Source: Lachnospiraceae bacterium
GTDB lineage: Bacteria > Bacillota > Clostridia > Lachnospirales > Lachnospiraceae
Assembly (NCBI GenBank): GCA_910575255.1
Contig: CAJTEM010000034.1
Location: forward strand, 1 to 56,407
Length of the DNA: 56,407 bases
Direction: 5' to 3'
The notes beneath the pieces are model-generated. The model saw only the letters and a list, made by a program, of their open reading frames with translations, was not told where the DNA came from and ran no database searches. Shown one piece after another: positions 2,940-53,350 of this stretch. How positions within the stretch are numbered: the first letter of the stretch is position 1; each line of letters starts with the position of its first letter. The translations under genes and the position numbers were made by a program.

Positions 2940-4418
2940 ATGCTGTCTGTTATTGATGCAAGATTTATCCTGATGGTTCTGGTCGGCTCCGTGGCAGGAC
3001 TGTTTGTGGGAGCAATTCCGGGACTTTCGGTATCCATGGCTACGGCGCTTCTGGTTTCGATTACGTATACCTGGGAGCATTCGGATGCATTGGCTATGAT
3101 TATGGGGGTCTATGTTGTAGGAGTCTTTTCCGGGGCGGTTTCAGCGATTTTGATTAATATACCAGGAGCGCCTTCGTCGGTGGTGACTACTTTGGACGGA
3201 TATCCGATGTCAAAGAAGGGGCAGGCCTATAAAGCGCTATATACGGCAACCATTTATTCCTTTACCGGAAGCCTGTTTGGATTGTTGGCATTAGGACTGC
3301 TGGCGACACCGGTATCGAGGATAGCGCTCAAATTCACGAAAATGGACTATTTTCTTCTGGCTTTTTTCGGTTTGACTACGGTAGGCTCTGTCAGCTCGAA
3401 AAATTATGCCAAAGGTCTGATCAGCGTTATGCTGGGTCTCATTATCAGTATGATCGGCCTGGATCCCCTGATGGGAACCCGGAGACTGACATTTGGGGTG
3501 CAGAACCTGACAGGGGGAATCAGTACGGTTCCGGCTCTGGTAGGATTCTTCGGCTTTGCTGAGGTTCTGTCAGTAATCTATAATAGAAAGCAGGAGGAGA
3601 ATGTCCTGACAATGGAGCGGATGAAGGTTAGCCTGCGGGAGGTGTTGAAAGGCTGGAAGCTGTCCCTGTATACCTCTGCAATCGGAATGCTGGTGGGAGC
3701 GCTCCCTGGCGCGGGCGGTCCGGTAGCGTCCTTTATTGCGTATAATGAGGCGAAAAGACTGACAAAGAATCCAGAGATTCCGTTTGGCGAAGGAGCGGTA
3801 GAAGGGATTATGGCCAGCGAGTCATCAAACAATGCCTGTATCGGCGGTGCATTGATTCCCATGCTGACACTTGCGGTTCCGGGCGATGCGGTTACAGCGA
3901 TCATCCTGTCAGTGTTTTATGTTCATGGACTGCAACCGGGTCCGATGTTTATCCGGCAGAACCCGGAGGCATTTTATTCGATTCTGGCAGCGGGGATCAT
4001 TGCCTGCTTTGCCCTGCTGGCACTGGGACTTTTGGTGGCTCCAAGGATTTGTAAGGTAATTACCATTCCCAAGAATATTATGATTCCGGTGGTGGCCAGT
4101 CTGTGTGTGATCGGTTCTTTTGCCTGCAATAACCGTTTATTTGACGTGGCGCTGATGTTCTTATTCGGATTCATCGGTTTTCTGATGCGCCGGTTTGATT
4201 ATCCGGTAGCGCCGCTGATTCTGGCAATGGTATTGGGAAAGATGATGGATTCCAATTTTCGCCAGGCTGTTTCTCTGGCCTCATCTGCAGAGAATCCTCT
4301 TATATCTATGTTTGGACATCCATTTACCATTATTCTGAGCCTTTGTTCCCTGGGAGTGCTTCTGAGCAATATTCCCTGGACAAGAAGATATATCGATCAA
4401 ATGCTTCACAGAAAATAG
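2940..4418 (+). CDS. tctA: TTT-family large membrane subunit TctA
   Basis: The large transport subunit of the tripartite tricarboxylate transporter, carrying solute across the membrane with an ion gradient. The 492-residue protein has 10-12 hydrophobic segments. Two glycine/proline-rich family motifs appear: GAIPGLSVSMATALL near residue 22 and GALPGAGGPVASF near residue 255. I take ATG 2940, preceded by AGGAGG (2925-2930), rather than a start 51 nt upstream that would add cysteine-rich residues overlapping tctB. It is last in the operon and is followed by a terminator. Confidence 0.94.
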   Translation: MLSVIDARFILMVLVGSVAGLFVGAIPGLSVSMATALLVSITYTWEHSDALAMIMGVYVVGVFSGAVSAILINIPGAPSSVVTTLDGYPMSKKGQAYKALYTATIYSFTGSLFGLLALGLLATPVSRIALKFTKMDYFLLAFFGLTTVGSVSSKNYAKGLISVMLGLIISMIGLDPLMGTRRLTFGVQNLTGGISTVPALVGFFGFAEVLSVIYNRKQEENVLTMERMKVSLREVLKGWKLSLYTSAIGMLVGALPGAGGPVASFIAYNEAKRLTKNPEIPFGEGAVEGIMASESSNNACIGGALIPMLTLAVPGDAVTAIILSVFYVHGLQPGPMFIRQNPEAFYSILAAGIIACFALLALGLLVAPRICKVITIPKNIMIPVVASLCVIGSFACNNRLFDVALMFLFGFIGFLMRRFDYPVAPLILAMVLGKMMDSNFRQAVSLASSAENPLISMFGHPFTIILSLCSLGVLLSNIPWTRRYIDQMLHRK

Positions 4419-6656: not shown

Positions 6657-8294
6657 TTAGTTGTCTTCTTCCTGCTTTTCGGATACGGAGAAGACAAAAC
6701 GCTTTCTGGCCATCTCATCGTTGGCCAGGTACTCGTCGTAGGAGGTGATCTTGTCAATCAGCTTTCCGCCCACGATCTCCATGATCCGGTTGGCAGTGGT
6801 CTGCACAATCTGGTGGTCACGGGAGGAGAAAATGAGCACACCGGGGAATTTGACCAGTCCGGTATTCAATGCAGTGATCGCTTCCATATCCAGATGGTCT
6901 GTGGGCTCATCCAGCATCAGCACATTGGCGCCGGAGATCATCAGCTTGGACAGCATGCAGCGGACCTTTTCACCACCGGAAAGCACCCGGACCTTTTTGA
7001 CACCGTCCTCACCGGCAAAAAGCATCCGGCCGAGGAAACCGCGCACGTAGGTGGCATCTTTTTCGGGAGAGTACTGAGTCAGCCAGTCAACAATCGTATC
7101 ATCATTGTCGAATTCGGCACTGTTATCTTTGGGAAAATAGGACTGGGTGGTGGTCAGTCCCCATTTGTAGGAGCCTTCATCCGGCTCCATCTCACCGGAA
7201 AGAATTTTAAATAATATGGTCTTGGCCTGCTCGTTGGGTCCAACCAGGGCGACCTTATCCTCGCGCCCTAGAGTAAAGGTCAGACCATCCAGAATTTTTA
7301 CACCGTCAATGGTCTTGGAAAGATTTTCCACGCTCAGGACCTCATTGCCGATCTCGCGGAAGGGACGGAAATCAATATAGGGGTATTTGCGGCTGGAAGG
7401 CTTGATATCGTCCAGTTCGATCTTTTCCAGCGCCCGTTTCCGGGAGGTTGCCTGCTTGGATTTGGAGGCATTGGCAGAGAAACGCTGAATGAACTCCTGC
7501 AGTTCCTTGATCTTCTCTTCCTTTTTCCGGTTGGCTTCCTTCATCTGCTTGACCATGAGCTGGCTGGATTCATACCAGAAATCGTAGTTGCCGGCATAGA
7601 GCTGAATCTTGCCGTAATCAATATCTGCAATATTGGTGCAGACCTTGTTCAGGAAATAGCGGTCATGGGAAACGACAATAACAGTATTCTCAAAGTTGAT
7701 CAAAAACTCTTCCAGCCAGGCAATGGCATCCAGATCAAGATGGTTGGTAGGTTCGTCCAGAAGCAGGATGTCAGGATTGCCGAACAGGGCCTGGGCCAGA
7801 AGCACTTTGACCTTCAGTGCACCATTCAGATCGTGCATGGACTGATAGTGAAATTCGGTGTCCACGCCCAGACCATTGAGAAGGTTCGCGGCGTCGGATT
7901 CTGCTTCCCAGCCATTCATCTCCGCGAATTCGGCCTCGAGGTCAGCAGCCTTGATGCCGTCTTCGTCAGAAAAATCCTCTTTCATATAAATGGCATCTTT
8001 TTCTTTCATCACCTGATACAGCCGGGGATTGCCCATGATTACGGTATCAAGAACCTGAAATTCATCGTATTTGAAATGATCCTGCTGCAGGAAGGACAGG
8101 CGCTGTCCCTGAGAAATTACTACATCTCCGTTCGTGGGCTCCAGCTGCCCGGAGAGAATCTTCAGGAAGGTGGACTTGCCGGCTCCGTTCGCGCCAATCA
8201 GGCCATAGCAGTTGCCCTCCGTGAACTTAATATTTACATCCTCGAATAATGCTTTTTTTCCTACCCGTAGGGTAATGCCGTTTGCACTAATCAT
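6657..8294 (-). CDS. ABC-F family ATPase with one degenerate nucleotide site
   Basis: A soluble twin-ATPase protein of the ABC-F class, whose members act on ribosomes and have no membrane domain. NBD1 (about 1-255) has Walker A GANGAGKST and Walker B LLLDEPTNHLD, but its signature reads LNGALKVK. The linker near 260-300 (FSANASKSKQATSRKR) is the YbiT-like type. NBD2 has a proper LSGGEK signature and DEPTDHLD, but its Walker A is GPNEQAKTI and its H-loop reads SSRDH instead of SHDR. The intact Walker A1 therefore pairs with the intact signature 2, while the other composite site is degenerate. The length of 545 residues is normal. Resistance function is possible but unsupported; a housekeeping translation factor is more likely. 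Confidence 0.9.
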   Translation of the reverse strand: MISANGITLRVGKKALFEDVNIKFTEGNCYGLIGANGAGKSTFLKILSGQLEPTNGDVVISQGQRLSFLQQDHFKYDEFQVLDTVIMGNPRLYQVMKEKDAIYMKEDFSDEDGIKAADLEAEFAEMNGWEAESDAANLLNGLGVDTEFHYQSMHDLNGALKVKVLLAQALFGNPDILLLDEPTNHLDLDAIAWLEEFLINFENTVIVVSHDRYFLNKVCTNIADIDYGKIQLYAGNYDFWYESSQLMVKQMKEANRKKEEKIKELQEFIQRFSANASKSKQATSRKRALEKIELDDIKPSSRKYPYIDFRPFREIGNEVLSVENLSKTIDGVKILDGLTFTLGREDKVALVGPNEQAKTILFKILSGEMEPDEGSYKWGLTTTQSYFPKDNSAEFDNDDTIVDWLTQYSPEKDATYVRGFLGRMLFAGEDGVKKVRVLSGGEKVRCMLSKLMISGANVLMLDEPTDHLDMEAITALNTGLVKFPGVLIFSSRDHQIVQTTANRIMEIVGGKLIDKITSYDEYLANDEMARKRFVFSVSEKQEEDN

Positions 8295-8439
8295 AATCTT
8301 CTAACACCTTTCCCGGCTCATATGTCAAAGGCCGACTAAAAAAAGAGGGCAGCTGCTGTCCCCATTTTTCGTATCATATCCATTTTACAGGAAAATCCTG
8401 ATTTTGCAAGTGGTTTTACGATATTTTCTGAAGAATCAG

Positions 8440-8735
8440 GTTACTTTTCACGGGCAATGTCCGTTAGCTAAGTGTTTCTGAAAGGTACGCCAAGGAAACG
8501 GGGAGAGACGCCATCGGAAATGGTTTGCTGCTTTTTCCGGTTTCGAGATCAAGAATTCCTAAAATTTGCGATTTTCGCTTCAAGGCAAAACTCAGAAATT
8601 TAAGGACTTCTAAATCTCTGCAAAGTCAAAATTCGCAAACCATTTCCGACGGCTTTTCTCCCCGTTTCCTTGGCTGTGCTTCGCGGCTCCTTAACTTACT
8701 AACATTGTTTCACGGGGGGAGGTTCCAAGGCGGAA
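8440..8735. repeat. Long foldback repeat, copy 1
   Basis: Arms 8489-8528 and 8635-8674 are complementary at 37 of 40 positions and enclose a 106-nt core. The core has its own imperfect inverted repeat (near 8549-8565 and 8596-8612). GTTACTTTTCACGGG (8440-8454) marks the left side, and TTCACGGGGGGAGGTTCCA lies on the right from 8709. Most core sequence recurs in copy 2 at 34143-34460. The sequence CTTAACTTACTAACATTG near 8690-8707 nearly matches an arm of the hairpin at 10990-11007. No transposase is encoded. The element fills the whole gap between the ABC-F gene and ddh. Confidence 0.85.
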
Positions 8736-8819
8736 CATCCCATCTCTTGTTCCCAAATTATATGCACGATTTTTGCAAGGTAGTTTCTGTGTTTAAACGT
8801 AGTTAAAATCGGCGTGGGA

Positions 8820-9806
8820 TTACAGGAACCGTCTGCGGAGTTCGGCTGGCTCGATGGCGCTCAGATAAGAGGGAGCGATATCGAAAACTGAACGGCAGCC
8901 GCATTGTCCTTCCTGATTCAGCCGGTAAGCGGCTCTTGCATAAGCGACAAGGACGGAAGCAGTAAATTCAGGATTGGAATCCAGCTTGAGGCTGTATTCG
9001 ATTACATGCTTGTGCTCATCGTTCCAGCCAGTTCTGCCGCTATGGATCACAAAGCCGCCGTGCGGGATTCCGGCATGATCGCGAAGAAGCTCTTCCTCCG
9101 TGATGAAGTGAACCGTAGTGTCATAGTCGGCAAAATAATTAGGCATATTGACAATGGTTTGCTGGATTTTTTGCAGGTCAGCTCCTGGTTCTGCCACTAC
9201 AAAGCATTCGCGGGTGTGTTTCTGGCGGGTGCTAAGATCGGGATTACTGCCGCTGCGCACAGCCTCTAAGGCCTGATCGACCGGGATCGTATACTGGCGG
9301 GCATCCCGCACTCCCTCGATACGGCGGATCGCGTCGGAATGACCCTGGCTGACTCCCTTGCCCCAGAAGGTGTAATCCTTGCCGCCTGGTAAGACCGCGC
9401 TGGCATAGAGGCGATTCAGGGAAAACATGCCGGGATCCCAGCCTGCGGAAATGATCCCGAGATGGTGATTCTTCCGTGCGGCCTGGTCGACAGCATCGAA
9501 ATGCGTGGGAATGTTGGCATGGGTATCAAAGCTGTCGATAACATTGAAATATTGGACCATTTCCGGTGTCTGCTTTGGCAGGTCGGTGGCGCTTCCTCCG
9601 CAGAGAATCATAACATCAATCCGATCTTTCATAGAGGGGGCCTTTTCTGCGGAGTATACCTCTGCTCCTTCCGTTAAAAGAGACAGACTTTTGGGATCTC
9701 GCCTGGTGAATACGGCGGCCAGCTCCAGATCCGGATTATGCTTTATGGCGCATTCTACCCCCTTTCCTAAGTTTCCATATCCGAAAATGCCGATTCTGAT
9801 TGTCAT
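8820..9806 (-). CDS. ddh: meso-diaminopimelate D-dehydrogenase
   Basis: An NADPH enzyme of the single-step dehydrogenase route to meso-diaminopimelate, used for lysine and peptidoglycan. The 328-residue length equals the family norm. The N-terminal Rossmann motif is IGIFGYGNLGKG. The family segments VIDSFDTHANIP, SAGWDPGMFSLNR and FWGKGVSQGHSDAIRRIEGV are present, the last forming the substrate region. GGFVIHSGRTGWNDEHKH and the NPEFTASVLVAYARAA segment complete the C-terminal half. It is transcribed alone, and its 3' end abuts the foldback repeat; no lysine-pathway genes are adjacent. Confidence 0.96.
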   Translation of the reverse strand: MTIRIGIFGYGNLGKGVECAIKHNPDLELAAVFTRRDPKSLSLLTEGAEVYSAEKAPSMKDRIDVMILCGGSATDLPKQTPEMVQYFNVIDSFDTHANIPTHFDAVDQAARKNHHLGIISAGWDPGMFSLNRLYASAVLPGGKDYTFWGKGVSQGHSDAIRRIEGVRDARQYTIPVDQALEAVRSGSNPDLSTRQKHTRECFVVAEPGADLQKIQQTIVNMPNYFADYDTTVHFITEEELLRDHAGIPHGGFVIHSGRTGWNDEHKHVIEYSLKLDSNPEFTASVLVAYARAAYRLNQEGQCGCRSVFDIAPSYLSAIEPAELRRRFL

Positions 9807-33110: not shown

Positions 33111-34097
33111 CTATAAATTTTTCTGGCGCTTTCTTTTCTCCCGATTACGCTGAATCCTCTTTTTACGAACATCTTCTTTACGGCCCATGACCTTTTTAGC
33201 GCCGTCCTCGTCCGTCAGTTTCAGCGTCTTCACAACATAGACCTGAGAGTCGTCGATGCGCTTCATGCGGATCTTCCCTTTCAGATACCCGTGCTCCGGG
33301 CAGATGGCAAGGCCATAGTAGATCTTTTGATTGGGTGTGAACCAGCGAATCTTTTTGCGGAGCATCCGTCCGCATTTGTAGCATTTCATCTCGGCTACGG
33401 AGCGCTCCTTCATGGCATCCTCCTTGGACGGAAATACCCTTGATACGTATTTGGAATAGTTGGGGAAAACCATGCGGATCTCTTCTGTCTTATTGTCCGG
33501 AATCCGGAAATAATCGATGGACCAATAGGGCAGCAGCGGCTGCTCTCCGAGCTCCTCCATCATGCAGATCAGCACCTTGCCGGTATAATAGGCGTCATCC
33601 AGAGCCCGGTGAAAGGGCCGATCCTCCAGCAGGCCAAGTTCATCTACTGCAGTATCCAGGGAAGGTTTGATGCCGTTTTTATAAAAGAGGGCATACAGCT
33701 TCTGGACGTCATAATAGAGCAGTGGCTTGGGAAAAGGATTCTCGATCCGGAAATGTTTCATATTCCGCTGCAGCTCAGTCAGGTCCATGGAACCCCAGGT
33801 ACAGTAAATGCAGTCATGGCCGCACCAGTCCAAAAAGTCTCTGGCTACAATCCGAAAATCCTCTCCATGGTGTCTCAGCTCCTTCATATCCATATGCGTG
33901 ACCTCAGAGATGGCGAAATGCATCTGGGTATAGACCTGGGGTCGGATCAGCCGGTGAAACTCTCCGATCACGGAATAATTCGGATCTAATTTTACGGCTC
34001 CGATCTCAATAATCTCGAAAGGAAAATCTTCTATGGAATCGGCTTTTCCGTGGGCGCTTTGATTCCATTCTAAGTCAAATATAATGTAGTTTTTCAT
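33111..34097 (-). CDS. DEDDh 3'-5' exonuclease with zinc-ribbon-like tail
   Basis: A 328-residue exonuclease of the RNase T/DnaQ superfamily. ExoI is FDLEWN (Asp8, Glu10). ExoII and ExoIII are visible as the TWGSMDLTEL region and FHRALDDAYYTGK (HxAxxD, about 188). The C-terminal part has CYKCGR and ICPEHG, a likely zinc site, and a very basic Lys/Arg tail. Such architecture is common in Clostridia; the substrate, DNA or RNA, is not clear. It is transcribed alone, and its promoter region is followed by the copy 2 foldback repeat. Confidence 0.85.
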   Translation of the reverse strand: MKNYIIFDLEWNQSAHGKADSIEDFPFEIIEIGAVKLDPNYSVIGEFHRLIRPQVYTQMHFAISEVTHMDMKELRHHGEDFRIVARDFLDWCGHDCIYCTWGSMDLTELQRNMKHFRIENPFPKPLLYYDVQKLYALFYKNGIKPSLDTAVDELGLLEDRPFHRALDDAYYTGKVLICMMEELGEQPLLPYWSIDYFRIPDNKTEEIRMVFPNYSKYVSRVFPSKEDAMKERSVAEMKCYKCGRMLRKKIRWFTPNQKIYYGLAICPEHGYLKGKIRMKRIDDSQVYVVKTLKLTDEDGAKKVMGRKEDVRKKRIQRNREKRKRQKNL

Positions 34098-34142: not shown

Positions 34143-34460
34143 TCGGTGAAAGGTACGGTGAACACAAGCTTTTTGTTACTTTTCACGGGGGAGGTTCCAG
34201 ACGGTACGCCTTGGAACAAGGGGAGGGCCGCAGCGGGAAACGGTCTGCGGATGTTTCCGGTTTCGAGATCAAGAATTCCTAAAATTTCTGATTTTTGCGA
34301 AAAGCGAAACGAAAATTCACAAACTCGCTCCGCTCAGACAGTGTGAATTTACGTTTCAACGCAAAACTCAGAAATTTAAGGACTTCTAAATCTCTGCAAA
34401 GTCAACATCCGCAGACCGTTTCCCGCTGCGGCCCTCCCCTTGTTCCAAGGCTGAATATTC
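34143..34460. repeat. Long foldback repeat, copy 2
   Basis: Arms 34208-34255 and 34404-34451 are perfectly complementary over 48 bp around a 148-nt core. The core begins TCCGGTTTCGAGATCAAG and ends TCTCTGCAAAGTC, as in copy 1 (8440-8735). Compared with copy 1 it holds an extra hairpin: 34308-34323 pairs with 34341-34356 with one mismatch. GTTACTTTTCACGGG occurs at 34175-34189. The arms differ from those of copy 1 but the changes preserve pairing. It lies between the exonuclease gene and alaX. Confidence 0.9.
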
Positions 34461-34491
34461 CGGTCCCCGTTCTTTCGAGGCTGGTAAATAT

Positions 34492-34677: not shown

Positions 34678-35844
34678 TCAAAAGCTTGCGTTTACCGTGC
34701 AGGGAAAGGCAACAAAATATTCCTGTAAATCCTGGCAAAGGGCAGTTACGGTTCCCTGCACCATCTCCGGTTTGCCGCCGCCTTTGCCGGGAAACGTTTC
34801 GTGAAAGCCTTTTAAAAATTCTCTCAGGTTGGTTTGCCGGCTTCCCAGGATATATTGGTAGCCCTGCCGGTCATTTCCTATAAAGATGCCGCAGATCCCG
34901 TCACAGCGATGCATTCCGGTATCGACAAAACGGCGGGCCGCATTCTTGTCGAGATCCTCTTCAAAGAGCAGGAATTCCTGCTTATCAAGCTTTTGTTCCA
35001 GATAGCGGTTCTGGATACGGAACAGCTTGTCCTTCCACTGCGAGAGTTCCTTTTGCAGCCGTTTCACGGCATCGGCCGTCTCACAGGGTCTGGCAGACAG
35101 AAGGCGGGAGATCTCCTGGACATTATCCTCTTTGATTCGGTAGTCAGCCAAAGCCCGGAAGCCACATACCATCGTCAGGCGGGTTCCGCCCTTGTGTCTG
35201 GCGGCGTCGATCAGCCGTATCATACCGATCTCACCGGTGCGATTCACGTGCGGCGCACAACAGGCGCATATATCATATCCCAAAACCGTGACGATCCGGA
35301 CCTGTCCGGTTAACTCCTTTTTACTGCGGTAATCCATCGCAGCCAGCTCCTCCTTTGAGGGAAAGGCAGTCCGGACAGGGATATCTTTGACTACGGCTTC
35401 ATTGGCCTCCTGCTCGATCTGCTGCAATTGTTCTTTCGTAAAGCTGCCGTTAAAGTCCATAGTGACTAATTCTTTTCCCAGATGAAAGCCTACATTGTCA
35501 TAGCCAAAATGCTGATGGATCAGCCCGGATACGATATGCTCTCCCGTATGCTGCTGCATCTTGGAAAATCGCTCCTCAAAGTCAATGCAGCCGTGAACCG
35601 TGGTTCCCTCAGGAAGCGGTTTTCTGCAATAATGGAGGATGCTCTCATCTTTTTCCTGAACATCTTCCACAATAATCCCTTCCAGCGTCCCTGAATCGGC
35701 GTACTGTCCGCCCTCTTCCGGAAAAAAGCAGGTCTGGTCCAGCACGATCCGGTAGCATGCACGCTTCTCGTCCCACTCACAGGCAGTTACCTGTGCGGTA
35801 AATTCCTTCTGATGGCTGTCCTGATAATATAACTTTTCGGTCAT
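34678..35844 (-). CDS. alaX: AlaX-type alanyl-tRNA editing hydrolase
   Basis: A stand-alone editing protein that hydrolyses Ser or Gly mischarged on tRNA-Ala. The 388-residue protein is the long form. Its N-terminal domain resembles the beta-barrel of AlaRS. The zinc ligands are His99 and His103 (HTGEH), a Cys of CACC (193-196) and His199. The C-terminal 150 residues hold a coiled coil (about 255-305) and a glycine-rich segment GKGGGKPEMVQG, as in the DHHA1-like tail of AlaRS. ATG 35844 has AAAGGAG 8 nt upstream. It is transcribed alone toward the structured repeats. Confidence 0.92.
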   Translation of the reverse strand: MTEKLYYQDSHQKEFTAQVTACEWDEKRACYRIVLDQTCFFPEEGGQYADSGTLEGIIVEDVQEKDESILHYCRKPLPEGTTVHGCIDFEERFSKMQQHTGEHIVSGLIHQHFGYDNVGFHLGKELVTMDFNGSFTKEQLQQIEQEANEAVVKDIPVRTAFPSKEELAAMDYRSKKELTGQVRIVTVLGYDICACCAPHVNRTGEIGMIRLIDAARHKGGTRLTMVCGFRALADYRIKEDNVQEISRLLSARPCETADAVKRLQKELSQWKDKLFRIQNRYLEQKLDKQEFLLFEEDLDKNAARRFVDTGMHRCDGICGIFIGNDRQGYQYILGSRQTNLREFLKGFHETFPGKGGGKPEMVQGTVTALCQDLQEYFVAFPCTVNASF

Positions 35845-35998
35845 AATCCGATTCTCCTTTTCTGTGATTCCTCTCAATATCTTATTTCACAACAATGCTG
35901 CTGTCAATAGCATTGTTCGTACAGCATACGGTAAAGGCAAGTTTTTGCAATCCGAAAGGTATGCCTTGGAGGAAGGGATATTGTTGAAAGCAACTCAT

Positions 35999-49284: not shown

Positions 49285-51675
49285 TTATTTAAAAACGACG
49301 ATAGTGACTCCGGCATCGCCCTCTCCGAACTCTGCCAGATGAAACTCCTTTACTACTTTTAATCTTTTTAAGTGCTTATGAATGCCGGCCCGCAGCGCTC
49401 CGGTGCCTTTGCCGTGGACGACCCGTACCTGCTGAAGGTGGGCGATATAGGCATCGTCGAGGTATTTGTCCAGCTGTGGGATAGCCTCGTCTACAGTCAT
49501 GCCCAGCAGGTTGATCTCCGGGGAGACAGAGGCGGATTTGGACATTTTGATATTGCTGCTTCCGGATCCCTTGCGCGGGCCGCTTAAGCCGGGGCCGCTG
49601 ACGGAATTCTCCTGAATCAGTTCCAGATCGGTCAGGTTGACCTGAGAACGGAGAATCCCCATCTGGACAAACAGATTGCCTTTGGCATCCGGCAGGGTAC
49701 TGATGGTGCCTTTCAGATTCATGGAGAGAACCCGGACACTGTCACCCACCCGCAGAGTCTTCGGGTTGATGGCCTTGTGCGGGCGTGCTTCCTGCTTCAG
49801 GGTGAGTCCGCTTTCTACCTTTTTCAGATTCTCGCGCAACCGGGAACGCTCTGTCTCCAATGCTTTGGTATCTACGCCGGACGCGGCAGCCATTTTGTTG
49901 ATATTTTTGATGGTGCGGTCTGCAGTATCCTTAGCTTCGCGCAGGATGCGCTGTGCTTCCTCATTGGCAGAGCGGATCAGCTTATCGCGGTGCTCGTCAA
50001 AGCGCTCTTCCTTTTGCTCCAGCCGTGATTTGAGACGGCTTACCTCCTCCTTATAGGTGCGGATCTCCTCCTGCTCCTTTTCGATGGTGAGGCGGCTTTC
50101 CTCGAGACGGCTGATGACATCTTCGAATGCTTCATCCTCGGATTCGATCCGGCTTTTGGCATCCTCGATGATATATTCCGGAAGTCCCAGCTTCTGAGAG
50201 ATGGCAAAGGCGTTGCTCTTGCCAGGGATTCCGATCAGAAGGCGATAGGTGGGGCGCAGGGTCTGGACATCGAATTCGCAGCAGGCATTCTCCACGCCTG
50301 CAGTGCTCAGGGCGTAGATCTTTAGCTCGCTGTAATGGGTGGTGGCCATGGTCCGGCATTTCATATTATGCAGGAAATTCAGGATTGAAATGGCAAGGGC
50401 AGCGCCCTCGGTGGGATCCGTGCCTGCGCCCAGCTCATCAAACAGGCACAGGGAGCGGCTGTCTGCCTTTCCCAGAATATCCACAATATTGGTCATATGG
50501 GCAGAGAAGGTACTCAGGCTCTGCTCAATGCTCTGTTCGTCTCCGATGTCGGCAAATACTTCATCAAACACAGCCAGCTCCGAGCCTTCAAAGGCCGGAA
50601 TATGGAGGCCCGCCTGTCCCATCAGCGTAAACAGGCCCACTGTCTTTAAGGAAACCGTCTTACCGCCGGTGTTGGGACCAGTGACGATCAGCAGGTCAAA
50701 ATGGTCTCCCAGCCATATCGTGATGGGAACGACCTTCTGGGGATCCAGAAGGGGATGACGCCCGTCTTTGATGTGAATTCGACCGTCCTGATTCAGGCGG
50801 GGCTCACTGCATTTATAATGACGGGACAGGGCAGCTTTGGCAAAGATAAAATCCAGGCGGGCGAGAATCTCCAGATTCAGCGTCAGGCTTTCGGTGTAAG
50901 GGGCAAGCTGATTGCTCAGATCCGCGAGCACAGCTTCGATTTCTTTATGCTCCTGAATCTCCAAGGTACGCAGCTCATTGTTGAGCTGGATAATGGCCAT
51001 GGGTTCGACAAAAAGTGTGGAGCCGGTGGCAGACTGATCGTGCACCATACCAGCCACCTGGTTTTTGTATTCTGCCCGTACCGGCAGGCAGTAACGGCCG
51101 TCACGCATGGTGATAACAGCATCCTGCAGATAGCTGCGGCTGGAATTTAAAATACTGTTTAGCTGATTGTGGATCCGTTCGTTGATTCCTTTGATCGAGC
51201 GGCGTACCCGATGAAGTCCCGGACTGGCATCGTCGCTGATCTCTTCTTCGGACAGGATACAGCGTTTGATCTCATTGTTGACCGGAGTCAGGGGTTCGAG
51301 ACTCCGGAACATCTCGTCTAAAGAGTCATCCTCGTTTTCTTCCGATTCCTCGTGGCGGCCGTAGGTTTTGGCCCGGGCAGCCACGGTTAAAACGGAGCTG
51401 ACGGACAGAAGCTCGGGAATGCTTAAGGAACTGCCGATCTCCAGACGCTTTAAGGAATCCCTGATGTCACGGACGCCGGACAGGGATAAGCTTCCTTTCA
51501 TGCGGATCCGGGAGACGGCATCGCTGGTCTCTGTCTGGGCCTGCAAGATCTCTCCGTAATCGGAGGAAGGCTGCAGATGGCGGCAAAGAAGCTTGCCAGG
51601 GGCAGAGGCGGCGTATTCGGTCAGCTGGGTGATGATTTTATCGTATTCCAGGGTTTTTAGTGATTTTGGGTTCAT
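49285..51675 (-). CDS. mutS2: Endonuclease MutS2
   Basis: A dimeric MutS-family protein that suppresses recombination or resolves collided ribosomes, with no role in normal mismatch repair. At 796 residues the length is normal. The N-terminal half is core and lever helices. The ATPase has Walker A GPNTGGKTVSLK and Walker B LFDELGAGTDPTEG. A long coiled coil (about 525-620, Glu/Arg-rich) and the C-terminal Smr nuclease domain with VHGKGTGALRAGIHKHL follow. ATG 51675 has a GAGGA site and fits the family N-terminus; the 20-residue extension does not. It is first of a unit with the response regulator. Confidence 0.96.
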   Translation of the reverse strand: MNPKSLKTLEYDKIITQLTEYAASAPGKLLCRHLQPSSDYGEILQAQTETSDAVSRIRMKGSLSLSGVRDIRDSLKRLEIGSSLSIPELLSVSSVLTVAARAKTYGRHEESEENEDDSLDEMFRSLEPLTPVNNEIKRCILSEEEISDDASPGLHRVRRSIKGINERIHNQLNSILNSSRSYLQDAVITMRDGRYCLPVRAEYKNQVAGMVHDQSATGSTLFVEPMAIIQLNNELRTLEIQEHKEIEAVLADLSNQLAPYTESLTLNLEILARLDFIFAKAALSRHYKCSEPRLNQDGRIHIKDGRHPLLDPQKVVPITIWLGDHFDLLIVTGPNTGGKTVSLKTVGLFTLMGQAGLHIPAFEGSELAVFDEVFADIGDEQSIEQSLSTFSAHMTNIVDILGKADSRSLCLFDELGAGTDPTEGAALAISILNFLHNMKCRTMATTHYSELKIYALSTAGVENACCEFDVQTLRPTYRLLIGIPGKSNAFAISQKLGLPEYIIEDAKSRIESEDEAFEDVISRLEESRLTIEKEQEEIRTYKEEVSRLKSRLEQKEERFDEHRDKLIRSANEEAQRILREAKDTADRTIKNINKMAAASGVDTKALETERSRLRENLKKVESGLTLKQEARPHKAINPKTLRVGDSVRVLSMNLKGTISTLPDAKGNLFVQMGILRSQVNLTDLELIQENSVSGPGLSGPRKGSGSSNIKMSKSASVSPEINLLGMTVDEAIPQLDKYLDDAYIAHLQQVRVVHGKGTGALRAGIHKHLKRLKVVKEFHLAEFGEGDAGVTIVVFK

Positions 51676-51750
51676 ATAGAGTTCCTCATTGATTGGGGTG
51701 GGGGCGCACTGGAGCGAGCCTGGCGGCTCGCTCACGGGCCTGTGGCCCTA

Positions 51751-51817
51751 TGGAAAAAGTCAGAGGAGAAGCCGCTTTTGTGCGAGCACAACGCGGATTC
51801 TCCTCTGACTTTTTCCG
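51751..51817 (-). other. Long hairpin in the mutS2 leader
   Basis: GGAAAAAGTCAGAGGAGA (51752-51769) pairs perfectly with 51799-51816; four more pairs continue after one mismatch. It is followed on the minus strand by a second hairpin (AGCGAGCC with GGCTCGCT near 51713-51732). Both lie between the mutS2 -10 box and start codon, so they are in the mRNA leader. Attenuation or a bidirectional terminator are both possible. Confidence 0.7.
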
Positions 51818-51840
51818 CAGTGCTTTTCGCTTTCGTGGAC

Positions 51841-51849
51841 ATTATACCA
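51841..51849 (-). promoter_or_regulatory. Extended -10 promoter of mutS2
   Basis: On the minus strand TGGTATAAT gives a consensus -10 with the TG extension. No good -35 is present at the proper spacing. The leader to ATG 51675 is about 160 nt and includes the long hairpin. Confidence 0.6.
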
Positions 51850-51897
51850 CAAATCGGGCGTGGGGGAAAGTACTGGTTTGGGGGAGTGATTTTTTTC

Positions 51898-51926
51898 TTG
51901 CACATTTGACGGAAGAACCTTATAAT
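51898..51926 (+). promoter_or_regulatory. Promoter of the HtrA-like gene
   Basis: TTGCAC (51898-51903), 17 bases, TATAAT (51921-51926). It diverges from the mutS2 promoter. The leader to ATG 52007 is about 75 nt. Confidence 0.75.
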
Positions 51927-52006
51927 AGGGGTAAGTCTTTTCAGGGGGGACGTTTGATCCGGGGAGTGTGATTGGGCAGTTGCGGCATATGAGGAGGAGG
52001 TACGGG

Positions 52007-53350
52007 ATGCCTGAAGTACGTGATCCGAAGAGAGAGCCGGGGAAGAAGCAGTTTATTACGGAGAAGGTTGTAAGACAGCCGCTAACCAGGAAGCAGGTGA
52101 TACGTCGGGGGCTTTTGCTTCTTGTGGCTGCTGTTCTTTTCGGAGGGGCGGCGGGAGCCAGCTTTGCCTTCTCCCAGTCATGGGCAGCCCGGAGATTCAA
52201 GGAGTCTTCCCCGACGGAACCTATGATTTCGATTCCTAAGGATGAGGTGACGGAACCGACGTCAGAAGCGGAGACGGAATCGGAATCAGCCGGGACTCCT
52301 GAAGAAGAACCGACCATGCAGGCCCCCCCAGAGAGCGAGGCTGTGGAAAAGGTGGTCCGGAATGCGATCGATAATTACCGCTATACGATAGAAGACCTGA
52401 ATGAGTTGTTTTTCTGTCTGCGGCAGCAGGTGCAGAATGCGTCCAAGGGAGTTGTGGTGGTGCATTCGGTTCAGCAGGAGGTTGACTGGTTTGATAATCC
52501 GGTGGAGACTACAGGACTGTATGCAGGCGCAATTATCGCAAAGTCTCCGCAGGAGCTGCTGATCCTGACACCAGAAGCGGCAGTCGAGCAGGCGGATTCC
52601 ATCGCGGTTACCTTTGCCGACGGAACTGAAGTTAACGGGCAGATGAAGCAGCAGGATACGTTGTCCGGTATGGCGGTTGTCGGTATCAATGTAAGCGATA
52701 TGGGAGAGAGCACCCTGAAGGAGACAGAGGTGCTGCCTTTAGGGAACTCCTATCTGGTGAGAGAAGGGGACCTGATTGTGGCGCTGGGCAGCCCGGCCGG
52801 TATCGTACGCTCTATCGATTACGGCTTTGTGTCTTATATTATGAAGAATGCGCCGGTGGTGGATCAGGTGACGAGGCTGTTTTATGCCGGGATCAGTGCA
52901 GATGCGGATCAGGGAACCTTTTTTATGAATACCTCAGGAGAATTGATCGGCTGGGCAAAGGGACAGGAGACGGATGCAGAGAATGGCCAGATGACTGTCA
53001 TTACAGGTATTTCCGACTATAAGGGAATCCTTGAGAATCTGACGAATGGCCTGTCAGCGCCATGTTTTGGAATCGAGGGGCAGGAGGTGTCAGATGCGAT
53101 AGCAGTGCAGGGACTTCCCCGCGGAATCTATGTGCTGAATTCCGTAACCGGACGCCCGGCATATGAGGCAGGGATTCAGAATGGAGATATCATAACCAGG
53201 ATTAATGATCATGAGCTTTCAACGATGAAGGATTTCCAGAATACCATCGATAATCTGGAATGCGGACAGTTGATTCATGTGACTGTACAGCGTAACGGGC
53301 GGGAGGAATATACGGAGCTGGAATTTCAGGTGACTGTGGGAGCGAGGTAG
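52007..53350 (+). CDS. HtrA/DegP-like membrane protein lacking catalytic residues, with PDZ domain
   Basis: A 447-residue protein with a cytoplasmic basic N-terminus, one membrane helix (about 34-56), an acidic Glu/Pro/Ser linker (60-115), a trypsin-like double barrel (about 140-340) and a PDZ domain (about 345-440, GRPAYEAGIQNGDIITRIND). The barrel keeps the HtrA framework (LYAGAIIAKSPQELLILTPEA; LIVALGSPAGIVRSIDYGFVS). The expected His after TN is absent, the DLAVL aspartate position reads LSGMAVV, and GNSGGP is replaced by DQGTFFMNTSG. It should therefore be a pseudoprotease. ATG 52007 follows GGAGGAGG by 6 nt. Confidence 0.82.
   Translation: MPEVRDPKREPGKKQFITEKVVRQPLTRKQVIRRGLLLLVAAVLFGGAAGASFAFSQSWAARRFKESSPTEPMISIPKDEVTEPTSEAETESESAGTPEEEPTMQAPPESEAVEKVVRNAIDNYRYTIEDLNELFFCLRQQVQNASKGVVVVHSVQQEVDWFDNPVETTGLYAGAIIAKSPQELLILTPEAAVEQADSIAVTFADGTEVNGQMKQQDTLSGMAVVGINVSDMGESTLKETEVLPLGNSYLVREGDLIVALGSPAGIVRSIDYGFVSYIMKNAPVVDQVTRLFYAGISADADQGTFFMNTSGELIGWAKGQETDAENGQMTVITGISDYKGILENLTNGLSAPCFGIEGQEVSDAIAVQGLPRGIYVLNSVTGRPAYEAGIQNGDIITRINDHELSTMKDFQNTIDNLECGQLIHVTVQRNGREEYTELEFQVTVGAR

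Follow-up and report, generated by a model that had tools for sequence, protein, structure and literature searches.

Within the ISBst12 group of insertion sequences, ISDge4 has been described as an element with one ORF that is bounded by the ends GTGACTACTCAGCA and GTAACTGCTCAGCA and flanked by an 8-bp duplication (PMC12898284). High-copy hairpins are also known from the REPINs of the REP-RAYT system, which are mostly intergenic and contain conserved parts, and in which the spacer varies yet keeps its pairing, with compensatory changes reported on both sides of the hairpin (PMC3116915). At the level of DNA synthesis, template switching at imperfect palindromes perfects them in E. coli, a process known as quasipalindrome correction (PMC7202029), has been proposed both to make hairpins and to maintain them by paired change (PMC8794818), and homogenizes the arms of repeats in yeast, where it also inverts spacers (PMC8604942).

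The two foldback elements analyzed here lie in a window of 56,407 nt, which is contig C34 of the 5.14-Mb, 106-contig genome of a Lachnospiraceae bacterium (the host genome), and they share features with all of these systems. Like insertion-sequence MITEs and members of the ISBst12 group, they belong to a family with terminal inverted repeats of the form GTNACNGTTCA, an 8-bp duplication and many dispersed copies, and, like MITEs, the two window copies are devoid of ORFs. It differs from them in that much of the element consists of one long hairpin with a conserved asymmetric core, and its exact mobilizer was not found. REPINs are likewise mostly intergenic high-copy hairpins, from which the present family differs in its 8-bp duplications, its IS66-like ends, the location of the arms outside the conserved core and its greater length (~290-340 bp). 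The apparent rewriting of one arm from the other through paired changes recalls quasipalindrome template switching and arm homogenization, but here it would have to act across dozens of dispersed copies, in isolated single-pair steps and with the core largely spared. Taking the evidence together, we assign a probability of about 0.6 to the reading that both copies are members of a high-copy, non-autonomous foldback transposon (MITE) family, mobilized by an IS66-type element, the arms of which are re-matched by DNA copying. The family is a mobile, high-copy foldback family, and what is unusual about it is the strictness and extent of arm co-change around a constant core.

Two foldback copies in the window

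Sequence inspection places copy 1 (region 8440-8735) and copy 2 (arms within 34208-34451) exactly where the initial annotation had located them. Both are composed of the following parts:

8440-8454, + strand: copy 1, left terminal inverted repeat GTTACTTTTCACGGG (genome-wide repeat scan; homology to relatives stops just before it)
8455-8472, + strand: copy 1, left outer module (CAATGTCCGTTAGCTAAG), pairing imperfectly with 8690-8707; the same module lies beside many copies
8489-8529, + strand: copy 1, left variable arm, purine-rich (sequence, repeat search, family parse, arm pairing)
8541-8630, + strand: copy 1, conserved asymmetric core, 90-nt form (TTTCGAGATCAAGAATTCC...AAGGACTTCTAAATCTCTGCAAAGTCAAA; sequence and family parse)
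8631-8674, + strand: copy 1, right variable arm, complement of the left arm (sequence, repeat search, family parse, arm pairing)
8690-8707, + strand: copy 1, right outer module CTTAACTTACTAACATTG (sequence; recurs beside other copies)
8708-8741, + strand: copy 1, remnant of a further module (TTTCACGGGGGGAGGTTCCAAGGCGGAACATCCC), without a clean right terminal repeat (sequence; similar modules at other copies)
34175-34189, + strand: copy 2, left terminal inverted repeat GTTACTTTTCACGGG (genome-wide repeat scan)
34208-34255, + strand: copy 2, left variable arm (sequence, repeat search, family parse)
34261-34406, + strand: copy 2, conserved asymmetric core with apical hairpin, 146-nt class (sequence, family parse, class alignment)
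34407-34451, + strand: copy 2, right variable arm (sequence, repeat search, family parse)

The arms quoted in the initial annotation show pairing at 37/40 (copy 1) and 48/48 (copy 2) positions, and the matched-pair change that it reported between the two copies is exact. Extended inward, the inverted repeats span 8489-8578/8585-8674 (77%) and 34208-34299/34360-34451 (87%), respectively, and the predicted single-strand folds lie 10.9 (copy 1) and 18.7 (copy 2) standard deviations below those of dinucleotide shuffles. Copy 1 sits between ORFs 6657-8294 and 8820-9806, and copy 2 between ORFs 33111-34097 and 34678-35877; no ORF of at least 120 aa overlaps 8440-8741 or 34175-34490, in agreement with the earlier remark that neither copy holds an ORF or transposase. 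The terminal repeat forms the left end of both copies (8440-8454 and 34175-34189), and both right ends are decayed; in copy 2, the usual right-hand module stops, by eye, at about 34490. The window contains another close inverted repeat at 51745-51823 (34 nt, 85% complementary, 11-nt spacer), which begins shortly after ORF 49285-51735 ends and overlaps the listed ORF 51760-52317.

A high-copy family in the host genome

A search of both strands of the host genome with the core word AAGGACTTCTAAATCTC, allowing up to three mismatches, returned 177 matches against 22 for the reversed control, some copies contributing a match on each strand to the 177. Parsing of the sequence around the core-word matches listed, a subset of these 177 places, yielded at least 98 distinct full copies. 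The initial annotation, which was based on two copies and proposed this search, was thus right and understated. The segment between the core motifs measures 146 nt in 72 of the 98 copies, 95-96 nt in 18 and 191 nt in five, with single copies of 90, 115 and 147 nt, the first of which is copy 1; simple complete copies are ~290-340 bp long. A GTACGC-like base motif lies on the same side of the core in 97 of the 98 copies, L048 being the exception. According to a crude ORF test, 79 of 96 testable copies are intergenic, and the genes neighboring 94 copies present no strong pattern of orientation (65 pairs in the same direction, 18 divergent and 11 convergent).

The arm that reads inward 5' to 3' is purine-rich in all copies parsed from the host (98/98) and from two further genomes, G022 (21/21) and G069 (9/9), with mean purine fractions of 0.65-0.67, and this richness persists in the three genomes even where arm sequences are largely unrelated. 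At one copy (L057), a short unit (AGAGGGTACGCCTTGGAAC) is repeated in tandem immediately before the left arm, which gives the impression of an amplified arm base.

Terminal repeats, target-site duplications and empty sites

Outside the arms, many copies carry the module CAATGTCAGTTAGTTAAG/CTTAACTTACTGACATTG, followed by GTTACT(G/T)TTCAC and its complement, and many are nested in larger elements that end in this latter motif. The end motif GTTACTGTTCACNNG yields 112 matches in the host genome against one for the control. A scan for facing repeats up to 1.2 kb apart, with at most two mismatches per end, identified 39 distinct pairs, and 8-bp duplications agreeing at seven or eight positions flank 17 of them; such agreement is expected by chance at 0.0004 per pair, or 0.015 over the 39 pairs. 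The 17 duplication-flanked elements range from 144 to 1,141 bp, and some are composites with a second hairpin family. The other 22 pairs, with nested, decayed or mispaired ends, show no duplication at this level, and many copies have no recognizable terminal repeats, the two window copies having no right end. The terminal repeat itself forms the base of the hairpin in G069, which belongs to another genus and whose genome is a single contig; of nine copies there, four show 8/8 duplications by script, and two more have duplications recognized by eye, at 8/8 and 7/8.

Comparison with relatives is consistent with insertion at the copy 1 locus, where 120-172 bp separate the alignable portions of the two flanking genes in three genomes (G008, G010 and G014), as against 558-609 bp in the host, and where homology to four relatives (L259, L260, L261 and L266) stops at window positions 8425-8429, just before the terminal repeat at 8440. 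Another copy (L151) has an empty site in a relative contig (L178). A copy found in the same intergenic region in G017 lies on the other side of the shared stretch and hence represents a separate insertion, while three candidate same-site pairs in relatives (L005/L185, L140/L238 and L028/L253) could not be demonstrated to be one insertion each.

Terminal inverted repeats, duplications of a fixed length (8 bp), dispersal to at least 98 sites and relatives that lack the insertion are all features of MITEs, as is the lack of an internal transposase gene, which holds for copies 1 and 2. The family is also patchily distributed among related species. Together with an IS66-type element with similar ends (see below), the terminal repeats and duplications place the copies among the MITEs. 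The statement in the initial annotation that no known family name came to mind consequently stands for the copies themselves and needs amending as to their class. Literature searches on MITEs in Lachnospiraceae, Clostridia and IS66, and more widely, in a collection that mostly excludes subscription papers, gave no description of the family among the matches listed, and a search for the letters of the terminal repeat gave nothing relevant; none of the terms IS66, Lachnospir, Clostridi, compensat, covari or template switch turned up when the text of a 2024 review of prokaryotic MITEs (PMC10969869) was searched.

The same ends also enclose other sequences. The second hairpin family (GGTACGCTCTGG...GGGTTTCGGATGCAG...CATCCTGCAAACGC...CCAGAGCTG; L074 1281-1844, L210 151-753 and L053 1699-2303) adjoins the first within the same terminal repeats, and by eye a GTTTCG / CTGCAAA internal-loop motif is common to both. 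A 144-bp element with the same terminal repeat (L168 294-438, L101 1072-1216 and L208 175-319) is flanked by 8-bp repeats matching at 8, 6 and 7 of 8 positions; its interior differs, so that unrelated interiors share one set of ends.

A candidate mobilizing element

A search for IS66 transposases (PF03050) in four genomes pointed to an element in the host genome (L338) of 1,812 bp, with ends GTAACAGTTCAGCC identical at 14 of 14 positions and an 8-bp duplication, AATTTTTT, matching at 8/8. Its single 494-aa ORF contains an IS66 domain (5.8e-18) and scores 136.7 bits with the NCBIfam IS66 model, below the 180-bit cut-off. A relative in G012 encodes 481 aa, scores 271 bits with the same model and has ends GTAACTGTTCAG and GTAACTATTCAG 1,805 bp apart, with no duplication seen. 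Relatives of the L338 protein occur in 12 of 195 genomes searched, host included; among 22 IS66-type loci, several of them short of flank, only that of the host passed a joint test of ends and duplication.

The putative link between this element and the foldback family lies in the ends. Two of the copies in G069 (L277 and L282) have right ends that correspond to GTAACAGTTCAGCC, the L338 ends, over 14 bases, and left ends that differ at one base. The repeat in the window agrees with the L338 end at 9 of 12 positions (by eye) and with the G012 element at 10 of 12, and no transposase with the exact repeat of the window (GTTACTGTTCAC) was found in the searched genomes, so that the IS66 class is a likely assignment. 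On the basis of the ends, the 8-bp duplication and the IS66-domain ORF of L338, the single-ORF, ISBst12-like IS66 family is the likely class of mobilizer and would move the copies in trans. Other candidates were discarded: no facing pair of such repeats lies beside any IS256-type transposase (PF00872) in four genomes, and the 499-aa PF03050 matches in G069 (L340-L342) are part of another element, whose ends are not the same. A scan of G069 for the end motif with at most one mismatch (41 places, control 21) gave short facing pairs only and no full-length partner.

Paired change in the arms

Covariation was assessed in an alignment of 41 hand-chosen copies from the 72 of the 146-nt class. Standard pairs occupy 97.7% of cells, double changes affect 59 of the 93 helix pairs, and the number of doubly changed cells is 450; the corresponding values are 85.2%, 30.9 and 109.2 in shuffles and at most 53.6%, 33 and 78 in slid alignments. 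Arm changes across copies are thus compensated, as the initial annotation had suspected from two copies, and the alignment also presents conserved internal loops and an apical hairpin. Between host copies (90 of 96, gapped rows left out), the mean number of paired differences over 35 arm positions rises from ~1 to ~22, whereas unpaired differences stay at 0.7-1.9.

The pattern extends to other genomes, in which copies were parsed with strict core anchors. In G022 (21 copies from 30 loci fetched, 37 matches), the core is common to all copies, but the arms share a mean of only 37%, and a maximum of 57%, ungapped identity between copies; within each copy, local complementarity spans 24-87 bp (worst case 39/49), and 1,069 of 1,105 aligned arm positions form Watson-Crick pairs. 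These pairing values, like the mismatch counts below and the complementarity in G069, derive from aligning arm to arm, which slightly favors pairing. Several G022 arms share inner stretches when compared by eye, and for this reason gradual divergence of the arm sequences seems more likely than capture of host sequence. In G069 (nine copies from 28 loci, 24 matches), nine of the 36 copy pairs exceed 60% arm identity, and the arms there are hence partly related.

Origin of the paired arms

Paired changes are usually taken as proof of a functional RNA fold, and the initial annotation had put forward selection on a folded RNA or DNA alongside a copying process that restores perfect palindromes. 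If each copy were transcribed and its arms were kept paired by selection on the RNA fold, the strong covariation, the conserved internal loops and apical hairpin and the largely intergenic location (79/96 in the crude ORF test) would all be expected. RNA helices, on the other hand, tolerate G-U pairs far better than A-C mismatches, and a large excess of the former should be seen. With all copies oriented with GTTTCG on the left (the G069 set turned round), there are 27 G-T and 40 A-C type mismatches at arm positions 6-40 of up to 96 of the 98 host copies, and 51 of each over 97 of the 98 (one copy without a right arm dropped); G022 has 14 and 19, respectively, and the nine G069 copies have 1 and 10, which on the opposite strand amounts to G-U over A-C by 10 to 1. 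In total, this orientation has 69 A-C and 42 G-U type mismatches, and the other strand shows a mild G-U excess (69 vs 42) that stems partly from G069, so that there may be a weak bias towards RNA on the opposite strand. At its own thresholds, Rfam identifies no family in the window copies or in three other loci, and its sole matches in the window as a whole are four tRNAs; among subthreshold scores, copy 1 shows a resemblance to microRNA-precursor models (best score 38 bits against a threshold of 100, E 2e-6). Because G-T mismatches are no commoner than A-C mismatches in the host and G022, and no Rfam model matches at threshold, selection on RNA is disfavored. Neighboring genes without a strong orientation pattern (65/94 in the same direction) and the largely unrelated arms of the G022 copies also count against a structured RNA family, which we judge very unlikely, selection on an RNA fold being poorly supported as a cause of arm pairing.

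Minority states were tallied in 65 of the 72 elements with the 146-nt segment. Of 529 such cells in the arms, 491 are paired and 38 mismatched, but the core-mid helix has only 42 paired among 88 (46 mismatched) and the apical hairpin 50 among 82 (32 mismatched). The core-proximal helix is nearly invariant, and its 16 minority cells (13 paired, 3 mismatched) indicate that coupling is not confined to the arms. The share of mismatches common to several copies is 19/38 for the arms, 32/46 for the core-mid helix and 26/32 for the apex, and individual core mismatches persist throughout the class (A/A in 72/72 copies, T/C in 67/72), the T/C mismatch also being present in 18/18 copies of the short class. 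Along the 75 of 89 branches of a minimum spanning tree that carry at most six changes (same 90 copies), paired changes comprise 80 transitions and 70 transversions, while single changes comprise 50 transitions and three transversions, with three more unclassified. A column-wise count is less extreme for single changes (36 transitions and 13 transversions among unpaired singleton states) and assigns one transition and 11 transversions to the 12 paired singleton states. Two independent mutations should produce few transversion pairs, and one mutation copied across should produce them if non-wobble mismatches are resolved faster. Adjacent paired changes number 13 against 12.8 expected, and this lack of clustering means that there is no multi-base template-switch signature, each change apparently copying a single mutation. 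These observations fit better with the copying reading, in which pairing in the arms is re-established singly, base pair by base pair, and to a far lesser extent in the inner core and apex of the same elements.

Selection could also act on the DNA itself, if a single-stranded hairpin served as the mobilization substrate, as proposed for REPINs, and pairing was restored by compensatory mutation. The combination of a conserved, asymmetric, internally looped core and paired arms that vary freely is what an enzyme that reads structure would need, and the compensatory changes reported in REPINs offer a precedent. Nevertheless, the terminal repeats and 8-bp duplications would point to a DDE-type transposase, and two-step compensation should favor transitions, in contrast to the 80:70 ratio of paired changes set against 50:3 for single ones; we regard this alternative as unlikely. 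Correction in situ of every resident copy as a quasipalindrome, unrelated to transposition, has the E. coli and yeast processes and the proposed paired-change maintenance of hairpins (cited above) in its favor, as well as the existence of the 12 private paired states. Core mismatches in the same copies are, however, almost never corrected, paired changes are not clustered, and the orientation of the spacer relative to the left base motif is kept in all copies but L048, even though template switching also inverts spacers; we find this explanation doubtful, if not without merit.

DNA-level copying between arms, sparing the conserved asymmetric core, fits the data best among the possibilities raised in the initial annotation, RNA selection being disfavored and selection on a DNA fold retaining a small share of the probability. 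Under the preferred reading of an IS66-mobilized MITE family, an ISBst12-like single-ORF transposase would move the elements in trans, and the arms between terminal repeat and core would be free in sequence so long as complementarity is kept. In the hairpin, a polymerase would copy one arm from the other, by template switching or during synthesis associated with mobilization, and a point mutation in an arm would be either erased or copied across to its partner. One difficulty is that copying throughout the palindrome should also have removed the conserved core mismatches. The core keeps its own mismatches and internal loops, which suggests a sequence constraint, perhaps as a putative binding site; its sparing may be due to selection for binding, to too little homology for copying or to copying that starts at the core. 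In a more speculative and rather improbable version, the conserved asymmetric core primes arm copying in the hairpin at each mobilization, new copies are born matched, core mismatches are left untouched and the arms drift without limit. If true, the G022 copies would have drifted so far that they share little beyond the core, the base motifs and the purine-rich 5' arm.

With about 100 copies in one genome, the family presents very strong covariation, yet both the types of mismatch observed and the abundance of transversions among paired changes speak for copying at the DNA level. It offers a natural test set in which selection on RNA could be told apart from template switching, serves as a caution for RNA discovery by covariation and may provide a way into the study of how IS66-type transposons move.

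Distribution beyond the host genome

At E values up to 1e-6, the core was detected in 10 of 116 genomes searched, host included; the other carriers comprise seven of the 23 congeneric genomes other than the host, plus a single genome from each of two further genera in the family. At least 50 stretches of named genome contigs match as well, all titled as metagenome-assembled genomes and most of them as Lachnospiraceae. The plasmid collection gave no match to the element, and the phage collection a single partial match (30% of the query at 77%). In MT837089.1, a 12.9-kb record titled 'Bacteriophage sp.' that derives from human faecal samples and carries no annotation, positions 3488-3599 match the core region at 77% over ~111 bases. 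Finally, several copies are located at contig ends (G000 C20:1-17 and C42:2-18, and the ends of C63 and C48), and many of the contig matches lie near ends as well, from which it appears that the family breaks short-read assemblies.
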